A DNA stretch of 64,000 nt. It comes from Halorubrum salinum. GTDB lineage: Archaea > Halobacteriota > Halobacteria > Halobacteriales > Haloferacaceae. The stretch lies in contig NZ_JANHDO010000001.1 in NCBI RefSeq assembly GCF_024494575.1, positions 930,001 to 994,000 of the forward strand. Direction: 5' to 3'. Position 1 is the stretch's first letter. Each line of letters starts with the position of its first letter. Under the pieces are notes generated by a model. It was given only the letters and a program-made list of their open reading frames with translations, ran no database searches and had not been told where the DNA came from. The position numbers and the translations under genes are program-made. This document shows positions 3,318 through 59,936 of the stretch, in pieces.

Positions 3318-4013
3318 TCAGTCTCCGCGGCTCGCGGCGATCTCCTCGCGGTGCGTGGCGACGAGGTCGGCGAAGGCCGCCGCCTCCGCGCGCTCCTGCG
3401 TTCCGTCTTCCCGGCGGTCGCGCATGCGGCGCTTGATCGTTCGCAGCGCGTCCGGCTTGCCGGAGGCGATCTCGGTGGCGACCGCGCGAGGGTCGTCGAC
3501 GACGCGGGAGACGAGCCCGGCCTGACGCGCCTCCTCGGCGTCGAGGACGCGTCCGGACAGGGCGAACTCCAGCGCGTCACCCTCACGCATCACTCGGGGG
3601 AGCCGGACGGTCCCGCCCCACGCACCGAACAGCCCGAACGAGACTCCCGGTTCGCCGAAGGTCGCGTCCGGGGTCGCGACGCGGACGTCCGACGCCAGTG
3701 CCATCTCGACCCCGCCGCCCCGAGCGGCTCCGTCGATACCGCAGACGACGACGGTGTCGGCGTCTGCGAGCGCCGACGCCGTCCGCTGGCCGCGACGCGC
3801 GAACTCGCTCGGGTCGTCCAGCGCGGCGACGGCGTCGAGATCGGCCCCGGCACAGAAGGCGCTGCCCGCTCCCCGGAGGTACGTCACCGGCGTCTCGGCG
3901 TCGGCGACGGCGACTCGGAGTTCGTCGAGATCGTCCGGCCGTAACGCGTTTCGGCTGTCGGGACGGTCGAGCGTTACGGTGCGGATGTCGTCGTCGTCTC
4001 GGACGCGGATCAT
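3318..4013 (-). CDS. enoyl-CoA hydratase/isomerase family protein
   Basis: A 231-residue crotonase-fold protein, a little shorter than the usual 255-260. GAGSAFCAGADLD gives one oxyanion-hole strand, and GAARGGGVEMALASDVRVA gives the second with the GGG-x-E position used for catalysis in hydratases. FGEPGVSFGLFGAWGG follows in the place of the second acidic residue. It would act on acyl-CoA esters, probably in fatty or aromatic acid degradation. I chose the ATG at 4013, before the IRVRDDDDIRTVTLDRP strand. Other crotonase activities cannot be excluded. Confidence 0.88.
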   Translation of the reverse strand: MIRVRDDDDIRTVTLDRPDSRNALRPDDLDELRVAVADAETPVTYLRGAGSAFCAGADLDAVAALDDPSEFARRGQRTASALADADTVVVCGIDGAARGGGVEMALASDVRVATPDATFGEPGVSFGLFGAWGGTVRLPRVMREGDALEFALSGRVLDAEEARQAGLVSRVVDDPRAVATEIASGKPDALRTIKRRMRDRREDGTQERAEAAAFADLVATHREEIAASRGD

Positions 4014-56936: not shown

Positions 56937-59936
56937 CTACGACCCGCGGTCGAACCGCTCTTGGTGGAGCGACTCGCTGTCGTTGAAAACGACGACACCC
57001 ACGTGCGGCTCCTCGTCGACCGCGACGGTCGTCTCGTCGCCGGCCGTCACCTCGCCGCCGTCGGCGTCCCACGGGCGGAGCCCGTCGCTTCCGGGCTCGA
57101 CGACTACGTCGATCTGTTCGGCCGAGACGGCGTCGCCGCCGGCGTGCGTGAACGTAACGTCCCCGCCGTCGCCGTCCGCGGCGGGATCGTACGCCACGTC
57201 GAACGTCGCCTGCGGCGGGATCACGTGTTCGGTCACGGTCCGAGTCCGGTCGCCGGCGGTCCACTCCACGGCGACCGTCGTTCCGGCCGACAGACCGCCG
57301 AGCGTGAGCGTTTCGCCGCCGGTCAACCGATCCGTCACGTCGGACGGCTGCACCTCGGCCGGCTCGCCGTCGACGAGGACCCGAAACGCGTCGGAATCGC
57401 GGTGGACCTCGCCGAGGTAGCGCAGGGTCGTCCCCGAAGCGCTCTCCCCGCCTTCGGCGCTTTCGCCGCCCGTTCCGTCCGCACCGCCCGCGGCGCGTCC
57501 CCCGTCTTCGACGACGAACCCGCGGCGGGGCGTCGCCGGGAAGTGTCCCACGGAGCTGGACGCCGCGCCGTTCTCGAACTCGGTGTGGACGCTGACGACC
57601 ACGGTGTCGTCGCCGGCGACGCCGTCGACGGTGACCGCGTCGCCGGCCGTCAGCTCGTCGTGTTCGGCCGCGAACCGCGACTCGCGCTCGCTCTCTCGCC
57701 CTCGCGGCCCGTTCGAGCCGGTAACTGAGAGGCGCAGTCGGCTCGGATCGACCGGTCGGTCGCCGACGTACTCCACGGTCATCTCTTCTGCGGCGGCGTC
57801 GTACCGCGCGATCACGGCGTCGCGTGCCGTCGTCGTCCCGCCGAGGTGGTGCTCGCGCTCGCCGCCGACCCACACGAGCCGCACCCGCGAGAGGGGCGGA
57901 ACGGGGGCGGTGAACGCGTCGTCGGGGCCGAACTCGTCCAGCTCGTCGGCGGGCTGTACCCCGGTCGGCTCCCGGCCGGCCTGTAGCTCTAGCTCCGACG
58001 CGGGGAGCGTTCGCCCGCCGCGGTGGCGCACCGTGACCTCTCCGGCGTCCGGGTCGTACTCGATCTCAGCGCGGGTGTTCGGGACGACCTCCTGCTCGGC
58101 GACGACGACCGGCTCGTCGGGCTCGCGCCACTCGACCGCGACGGCGCTTCCAAGCCGAAGCTCTCCGAGGACCAGTTCGTCCCCGTCCGAGAGAGAGTCG
58201 TGTTCGTCGGCGAACTGCGCGTCGGTCGGCTCCCCGTCGACCAGCGTCACGAACGCGTCCGCGGGGCGAGACTCCTCGCCGGCGTACCGTACGGTCGTAC
58301 CCTCCTCGGCGCGCGAGTGGATCCAGACGTGCGGCGGCGACGCGCGGTAGTGCGCGAGCGACCCTCTCCCGACGCCCGGCGGGGTCTCCACGTCGAACTC
58401 CAGCCGCACGCTGTCGCCGATACTCACGTCGTCGACGACGACCTCGTCGCCCGGTTCGAGCGTGGCGTCGGTGAACTCCTCGCCGACCGTTCGGGCACCG
58501 CTCTCCCCGCGGTGGACCAGCCGGAGGTCGCTCGGGTCGGCCGCGCGCTCGCCCTCGTAGGTCAGCTCCAGCGTCTCGGCGTCCATGTCGTACGAGAAGG
58601 AGAACGCCTCGCGGTCGACGCGCTCGCTGGCGTACGTGTAGTAGGCGTTCTCGGCGGCGTCGAACCACCGCAGCGTGACGGTTCCGATCCGGCCGGTGTC
58701 GACGGTGAGCGCGTCGCCCGCCTCGAACGTCCCGCCGTCGAGGACGGCGTCGCTCACATCTTCGCCGTCGTGCCACACCTCGAGCTCGTCGGCGGGCACC
58801 GCCTCGCCTCCGCGGTGTTCGAACGTCACCGTGCCTTCCTCGCGGTCGAACCGCGAGCGAACGTCCGCGTCCGGGGCCGCCTCGCGGTCCAGTTCCGGCG
58901 GTGCTTCGACCGTGACGTCGACGAGTATCAGCCCGTCCGCCCGCGAGACGTCCGTCTCGACCGGTTCGGCGGGATCGACCGCGCGAACGAACCGTTCGAC
59001 CGCGTCGTCGTCGGGCGACGCTCCCCCGGACCCGGTGCCGGACGCGTCGTCCGCAGTGCGGATGACGTAGGCGTTCTCGGCGGTTCCGTCCAGCTCGCGC
59101 AGGTCCGCCGGAGCCGTCTCGAAGCCGGCGGCGAACGCGTCGACGCCGCCCGGAACTCGCGACGGGAACGGCCCTCCGTCGGCGTCGGGGACGAGGAGCA
59201 CCGTCTCGAACCCGCCGAGCCGCGGGAGCGCCGCCTCGCCGATCGCCGACTCCGCGAGCCGATCGACCTCGCCTGTGGCGGTGCGGCCGGCGATTCGAGC
59301 GGTCTCGATCCGTCGATCGGCCTCGTCCCCGCTCGCATCCGCCGCGCCGGAGGCGGCTGGAACAGCGGCGGCGGTGGCCGCCGCCACGCCTTCACCGGCG
59401 ACGACGGCGGTGTCGCCGTCGTCGGCGAGCCGCCAGCCTGCGGGGAGTTCGTCCGTCGTCTCGGCGTCCGTCGCGGGGCCGGAACTCCCGCCGCGATCAC
59501 CGTCGACGACGCTGCCAGCGTCACCGCTCTCGCCGACCGCGATCGTCTCCCCGAGTTCGACCCGGTCGAACGATCCCGCGGCGGTCAGCAGGCGGACTCC
59601 GCGGTCTGACGGCGTGACCGAGACCGTCGCCGACAGCGCGTCCGCGTCCACGCCGAGCGTCTCGGTCGCGGACCGAGCGCGATACGACAGGTCCTCGGTC
59701 GCGTCCGCGTCGACCCGGTCGGCGATGACGGTCGCGTACGTCGTCGACAGCGCCTCAGCCGCCGGCACGGGGAGGAAGGCGTCTGCGAACGGCGCGGGAA
59801 CGTCGACGTCGAGGTCGGCCGGTGTGCCGTCCGGTGAGCGTTCGTCTCCGTCGACCTCCGGGTCGACGAAGCCGGTCAGCGCGGCGAGCGTCAGGGCGCT
59901 TCCACCGAGGAAGTCCCGACGGGAGGGGCGTACCAT
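56937..59936 (-). CDS. Tat-exported protein with seven Ig-like repeats
   Basis: A 999-residue protein I do not recognise as a whole. RRDFLGGSALTLAALTG is a twin-arginine signal, so it folds in the cytoplasm and is exported. Residues 40-345 form a non-repeated domain with an alanine-rich linker. Residues about 361-996 hold seven repeats of 75-100 residues, each with a TVxxxHxGG or TxRYxGE strand, an xxELxV strand, and an LxxGDxxTV turn; they recall the beta domain of haloarchaeal pilins. No C-terminal membrane helix or sorting motif is seen. Start ATG at 59936; a TATA-like motif lies 28 bases upstream. Confidence 0.85.
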   Translation of the reverse strand: MVRPSRRDFLGGSALTLAALTGFVDPEVDGDERSPDGTPADLDVDVPAPFADAFLPVPAAEALSTTYATVIADRVDADATEDLSYRARSATETLGVDADALSATVSVTPSDRGVRLLTAAGSFDRVELGETIAVGESGDAGSVVDGDRGGSSGPATDAETTDELPAGWRLADDGDTAVVAGEGVAAATAAAVPAASGAADASGDEADRRIETARIAGRTATGEVDRLAESAIGEAALPRLGGFETVLLVPDADGGPFPSRVPGGVDAFAAGFETAPADLRELDGTAENAYVIRTADDASGTGSGGASPDDDAVERFVRAVDPAEPVETDVSRADGLILVDVTVEAPPELDREAAPDADVRSRFDREEGTVTFEHRGGEAVPADELEVWHDGEDVSDAVLDGGTFEAGDALTVDTGRIGTVTLRWFDAAENAYYTYASERVDREAFSFSYDMDAETLELTYEGERAADPSDLRLVHRGESGARTVGEEFTDATLEPGDEVVVDDVSIGDSVRLEFDVETPPGVGRGSLAHYRASPPHVWIHSRAEEGTTVRYAGEESRPADAFVTLVDGEPTDAQFADEHDSLSDGDELVLGELRLGSAVAVEWREPDEPVVVAEQEVVPNTRAEIEYDPDAGEVTVRHRGGRTLPASELELQAGREPTGVQPADELDEFGPDDAFTAPVPPLSRVRLVWVGGEREHHLGGTTTARDAVIARYDAAAEEMTVEYVGDRPVDPSRLRLSVTGSNGPRGRESERESRFAAEHDELTAGDAVTVDGVAGDDTVVVSVHTEFENGAASSSVGHFPATPRRGFVVEDGGRAAGGADGTGGESAEGGESASGTTLRYLGEVHRDSDAFRVLVDGEPAEVQPSDVTDRLTGGETLTLGGLSAGTTVAVEWTAGDRTRTVTEHVIPPQATFDVAYDPAADGDGGDVTFTHAGGDAVSAEQIDVVVEPGSDGLRPWDADGGEVTAGDETTVAVDEEPHVGVVVFNDSESLHQERFDRGS

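Follow-up and report, generated by a model that had tools for sequence, protein, structure and literature searches.

A haloarchaeal protein with a Tat signal and seven tandem repeats resembling the head domain of type IV pilins

RESULTS

A gene of Halorubrum salinum, located in a window of 64,000 nucleotides (the whole stretch of DNA analyzed) of a 2.73-Mb genome assembled in six contigs, encodes an exported protein in which a Tat signal and an N-terminal domain are followed by seven tandem repeats (Table 1). That these repeats correspond to the Ig-like head domain of type IV pilins from haloarchaea is well supported by profile comparisons and by predicted structures. The start methionine corresponds to the start in the Halorubrum orthologues. 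A GTG-started upstream extension (1236 amino acids) was ruled out because the orthologues align from the methionine of the Tat signal. Compared with four Halorubrum-like orthologues, the gene showed dN/dS values of approximately 0.21 to 0.41, indicating purifying selection, and the repeats were conserved at least as well as the N-terminal domain (pN 0.14–0.15 and 0.18–0.22, respectively).

Table 1. Features of the seven-repeat gene in the window
Feature	Position in the window	Strand	Residues	Remarks
Whole gene	56937..59936	(−)	999 plus stop	Tat signal and N-terminal domain, followed by seven repeats of the type IV pilin-head kind (from the translation)
Tat signal	59847..59936	(−)	1–30	MVRPSRRDFLGGSALTLAALTGFVDPEVDG; weak match to TIGR01409; comparison with family members carrying LAGC or VSGC
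N-terminal domain, alpha/beta	58869..59798	(−)	47–356	Common to the family; AlphaFold2 mean pLDDT 84.2
R1, type A	58611..58868	(−)	357–442	Pairs with R4; pilin head 8fj5 with Z 10.2, rmsd 2.4 over 91 amino acids
R2, type B	58332..58610	(−)	443–535	Pairs with R5
R3, type C	58080..58331	(−)	536–619	Pairs with R6
R4, type A	57813..58079	(−)	620–708	Pairs with R1; pilin-head profile match 98.2%
R5, type B	57525..57812	(−)	709–804	Pairs with R2
R6, type C	57213..57524	(−)	805–908	Pairs with R3; Gly/Ser/acidic insert near the start, low confidence
R7, terminal type D, A-like	56940..57212	(−)	909–999	Most similar to true pilin heads among the repeats

The nearest relative, from Halorubrum sp. SD626R, is 98% identical across the matched part of the protein; named Halorubrum relatives share 67% to 73% identity. 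On the DNA level, the SD626R sequence (L042) shares 99.6% identity with the window across 3378 bases, as far as the middle of R2, where its position 3379 corresponds to window position 58437. Beyond this breakpoint, it changes abruptly to unrelated DNA apparently encoding a peptide ABC transporter, and the gene is truncated, which appears to reflect a rearrangement or an assembly join. In a Halorubrum-like genome (L108, G176:C1:1274500-1283500), the gene is split near R2/R3 into two overlapping open reading frames in different frames, an apparent frameshift.

Relationship of the repeats to type IV pilin heads

AlphaFold2 predicted residues 345–999 confidently as a chain of beta-sandwich domains (mean pLDDT 86.6, pTM 0.65), as expected from the initial annotation, which had described seven Ig-like repeats in the region now delimited as residues 357–999. 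At this pTM, the model gives the domain folds and is little informative on domain–domain geometry. The insert of R6 forms a low-pLDDT segment (model residues 471–489). Pfam recognized a single family in the protein, Pilin_N (PF07790; E 2.6e-13, 51.1 bits compared with a cut-off of 25.2), in three stretches. The match is restricted to positions 33–76, which is the second half of the model and covers the start of the head. A profile of residues 345–999 retrieved a type IV pilin of Haloferax volcanii (8fj5, E 9.5e-8) as the sole significant solved protein, and the AlphaFold2 models superimposed on this structure with Z 10.2–10.4 and an rmsd of 2.4–2.6 Å over 91 residues. In a profile comparison with true pilin heads, two from the host genome among them, R7 matched best (98.7%, score 86), followed by R4, R1 (96.2%), and R2 (94.6%); lower values were obtained for R5 (89.8%), R6 (70.0%), and R3, which was the weakest (64.3%).

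Head fold and sequence are thus similar to those of archaeal type IV pilins (PF07790; H. volcanii 8fj5; PilA1/PilA2 of Natrinema J7-2, 9myg and 8gi2), whereas the protein lacks the class III signal and the hydrophobic helix of the pilins, carries seven heads per chain and an additional N-terminal domain, and has a Tat signal for export. TIGR02537, which describes the class III signal and helix, did not match the protein, whose N-terminus is a Tat signal; for a true pilin, this model gave E 4.1e-14. Pilins are single small subunits with one head (about 150–180 amino acids), in contrast to the 999 amino acids and seven heads found here. Since class III signal and helix are missing, the protein was rejected as a pilin. 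Foldseek gave many matches of the AlphaFold2 model to FnIII arrays. The beta-sandwich chain is shared with tandem Ig/FnIII surface rods such as fibronectin, receptor ectodomains, and bacterial stalk adhesins, which differ in that the units of the window protein are related to pilin heads and can be sorted into classes A, B, and C that recur in blocks of three.

Repeat classes

From the sequence, the repeats had initially been arranged in a strict A-B-C-A-B-C-A order. Local alignments within this one sequence, with Z scores calculated against 200 shuffles, paired R1 with R4 (Z 11.0), R2 with R5 (15.1), and R3 with R6 (29.7). R7 scored 11.4 with R1 and 6.7 with R4, and all remaining pairs were in the range of 0.5 to 6.5. 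With per-repeat profiles built from seven-repeat relatives, the scores were 131 for R1–R4, 131–132 for R2–R5, and 173–175 for R3–R6, compared with 70 for R7–R4, 54–58 for R7–R1, and at most 79 for the remaining pairs. Z scores and profile scores rule out chance similarity or low complexity as the source of the repeats; the A-B-C-A-B-C order of the first six exceeds chance, and their pairing upholds the proposed duplication of a three-domain unit.

In the repeat tree, the B types formed one supported group, the C types likewise, and A1 and A4 clustered together. The grouping by type, which had been set beforehand as a check, was therefore recovered for R1–R4, R2–R5, and R3–R6, but R7 was placed outside the A1/A4 group. 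Because of this placement and its lower profile scores with the A repeats, the "A" label of R7 is approximate, and R7 is better named a fourth class, D, which resembles A. The motifs quoted for the types A, B, and C were all found in R1/R4, R2/R5, and R3/R6, while R7 (THAGGDAVSAEQID) fits the A motif "HRGG..PAxELE" only loosely. Within seven-repeat proteins, the C repeats R3 and R6 share an identity of 0.40–0.51, about the same as between different-family orthologues; A and B repeats differ in that respect. Gene conversion or stronger constraint could account for this similarity of the C repeats.

Export signal and N-terminal domain

The protein starts with a Tat signal, MVRPSRRDFLGGSALTLAALTG, as had been recognized before. 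It contains the twin-arginine motif SRRDFL, which reads SRR[RG]FL in the Halorubrum orthologues, and narrowly misses the cut-off of TIGR01409 (E 0.011). The lipobox-like LTG is kept, but F takes the place of the cysteine (LTG-F), and not a single cysteine occurs among the 999 amino acids. A second strongly hydrophobic stretch, a transmembrane segment, and a C-terminal anchor or hydrophobic stretch are also absent from the protein. In some family members, the lipobox is present as LAGC or VSGC; its cysteine was found in proteins with seven (L111), six (L096, L097, and L099), four (L020, L021, L091, and L093), three (L113), and one head (L121–L123). Most of the seven-repeat proteins and several others carry F, V, Y, I, L, or N instead. 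The family thus resembles haloarchaeal Tat lipoproteins in the Tat signal and, for several members, in the lipobox, although the lipobox cysteine is absent from the window protein and from most relatives with seven repeats. The absence of a visible anchor, already described in the initial annotation, can be traced to the loss of this cysteine within a family that includes Tat lipoproteins. Relatives with the cysteine are predicted to be membrane-tethered. A tether is also possible for the window protein, because some C-to-S lipobox mutants in Haloferax remain cell-associated, perhaps via an uncleaved signal (PMC2945643).

No named family was assigned to the N-terminal domain by Pfam and NCBIfam. 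Its best fold match was TP0453 of Treponema pallidum, a membrane-associated lipoprotein (3k8j; Z 10.4–10.5, 206 residues, rmsd 4.4–4.7 Å, 10–11% identity), which suggests a TP0453-like alpha/beta fold over about 200 residues. The relationship is unproven given this low identity and high rmsd, and a profile search with the domain did not match TP0453. Within the family, profiles linked the domain to that of four-repeat relatives (98.8%) and the latter to that of one-repeat lipoproteins (97.8%).

Distribution and architectures of the family

A clear family member (E below 1e-40) was counted in about 80 of 391 haloarchaeal genomes. In a sample of the phylum (392 genomes), 18 genomes gave matches at E ≤ 1e-20, all of them from the same order. 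Related N-terminal domains are found in haloarchaeal proteins with one (L121–L124), three (A/D-like; L113), four (A-B-C-D; L020, L021, L093, L026, L092, and others), six (A-B-C-C-C-D; L096–L100), and seven heads (A-B-C-A-B-C-D, as in the window protein). These architectures were assigned with repeat models, which score the first and last head classes weakly in more distant members. The R7 model best matched the last repeat in the four-repeat relatives L020, L021, L091, and L093.

In a tree of the N-terminal domain built without the repeats, in which the root is uncertain and the one-head outgroup rows are long, the seven-repeat proteins and L090 formed one clade (98/99). The four-repeat proteins were distributed over two other clades, both of which also include six-repeat proteins (L100 in one, L096–L099 in the other). 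As the A-B-C-C-C-D forms are located in two different clades, the C repeat was probably expanded twice independently. For L020-like proteins, the repeat tree placed the second repeat closer to R5 than to R2, so that a reduction from seven to four heads may have occurred in this clade. The short first repeats of L026-like proteins were placed close to R7, but this position is unreliable, since the branch is long and based on few columns. L090 belongs to the seven-repeat proteins, yet has the order R1-R2-R3-R7. Its third repeat is chimeric, with an R3-like start and an R6-like end (EIRDHVVAPDADFEI), and is followed by R7, as expected if recombination between R3 and R6 had removed exactly one ABC block; the last residues of L090 are frameshifted.

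The neighbors of the gene in the window are not common to other Halorubrum copies, the exceptions being SD626R, which is near-identical, and L039, where a single glyoxalase matched. Because the neighborhoods of relatives are unrelated, the gene likely acts on its own. A seven-repeat-size copy is located on a 357-kb plasmid of Natronorubrum aibiense (L138, NZ_CP045490.1), with thiolase-pathway genes at a distance of a few kb. The window gene likewise has a thiolase nearby, which was not found beside the gene in 28 named relatives. A mobile origin was rejected, since no phage match was found for the gene and the plasmid was the only such record; its copy, the sole annotated one seen, is labeled "hypothetical protein."

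DISCUSSION

In the simplest history consistent with the trees and architectures, a four-head ancestor would have duplicated its ABC block once, the C repeat would have been expanded on two separate occasions, and one block would have been lost. A pilin head may first have been captured by a Tat lipoprotein, giving rise to one-head forms, from which the A-B-C-D array would have grown; the ABC block would then have been duplicated via unequal recombination between similar repeats, although the direction of these steps is itself inferred. The duplication could have occurred by the same kind of unequal exchange as the loss in L090. The earlier idea that the seventh repeat was added last has to be abandoned: R7 is a distinct class that already terminates the four-repeat A-B-C-D relatives, so that a duplication of the ABC block ahead of it is the simplest explanation.

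Regarding function, we consider it an evenly balanced proposition that the window protein is a Tat-exported envelope or surface protein, in which a rod of pilin heads on the N-terminal domain makes contacts through or beyond the S-layer. The protein would be exported in the folded state by Tat, the alpha/beta domain would adjoin the membrane, and the seven heads would project as a rod reaching through or past the S-layer, where it may mediate adhesion, cell–cell contacts, or lateral contacts with pili. With the lipobox cysteine lost, the tether might be the uncleaved signal or the N-terminal domain; otherwise, the protein would be released. Rod shape, orientation, membrane tether, and contact function are deduced from the predicted architecture, and the initially suggested role as a stalk or adhesin remains plausible. 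The protein contains no catalytic or ligand motif pointing to a partner.

The homology of all seven domains to the pilin head and the presence of five pilin-type genes above the Pfam cut-off in the host genome would also suit a factor whose heads bind filaments or pilins by head–head contacts, acting as a cap, decoy, tether, or retention factor. We consider this unlikely, because the loci read through showed no linkage of the gene to pil genes, the helix used in pilin assembly is missing from the heads, and the B and C types have diverged far from pilins. An envelope protein handling lipids or other ligands, in which the TP0453-like domain would be the active part and the repeats would serve as spacers that position it, is less likely still. 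The similarity in fold to a membrane-associated lipoprotein (Z 10.5, 206 residues) and the occurrence of the N-terminal domain in the family at any repeat number favor such a role, but they are set against the low identity, the high rmsd, the small number of invariant residues, and the conservation of the repeats, which is at least that of the N-terminal domain.

Similarly improbable is a freely secreted, anchorless matrix or biofilm protein. The protein could be released, as it combines a Tat signal with the lack of cysteine, transmembrane segment, and C-terminal hydrophobic stretch, and other haloarchaeal lipobox mutants are released according to work cited in PMC2945643. However, the relatives with a lipobox cysteine are predicted to be membrane-tethered, and LTG is retained ahead of the missing cysteine. 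The surface rod on the N-terminal domain is preferred here over these alternatives.

More tentatively, and with less confidence than for the surface rod, we propose that the pilin head serves haloarchaea as a general rod-building module outside pili on Tat proteins and lipoproteins, the length of which would be set by block duplication and loss (one, three, four, six, or seven heads). Such a protein would be a "single-chain pilus" that spans the S-layer without assembly. A description of tandem Pilin_N/DUF1628 (pilin) heads on Tat proteins was not found in searches of the open-access literature; the domain is known, and its architecture and history appear to be new. The window protein shows that a domain of pilus subunits has been reused outside pili, where several copies of it are present within one exported chain. 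The family retains likely steps of this history, from one head via A-B-C-D and the ABC duplication to C expansions in parallel and a single loss by recombination. In haloarchaeal annotation, a Pilin_N match can accordingly come from a protein other than a pilin. Members of the family occur widely in haloarchaea, and existing haloarchaeal genetics could test their role in adhesion.
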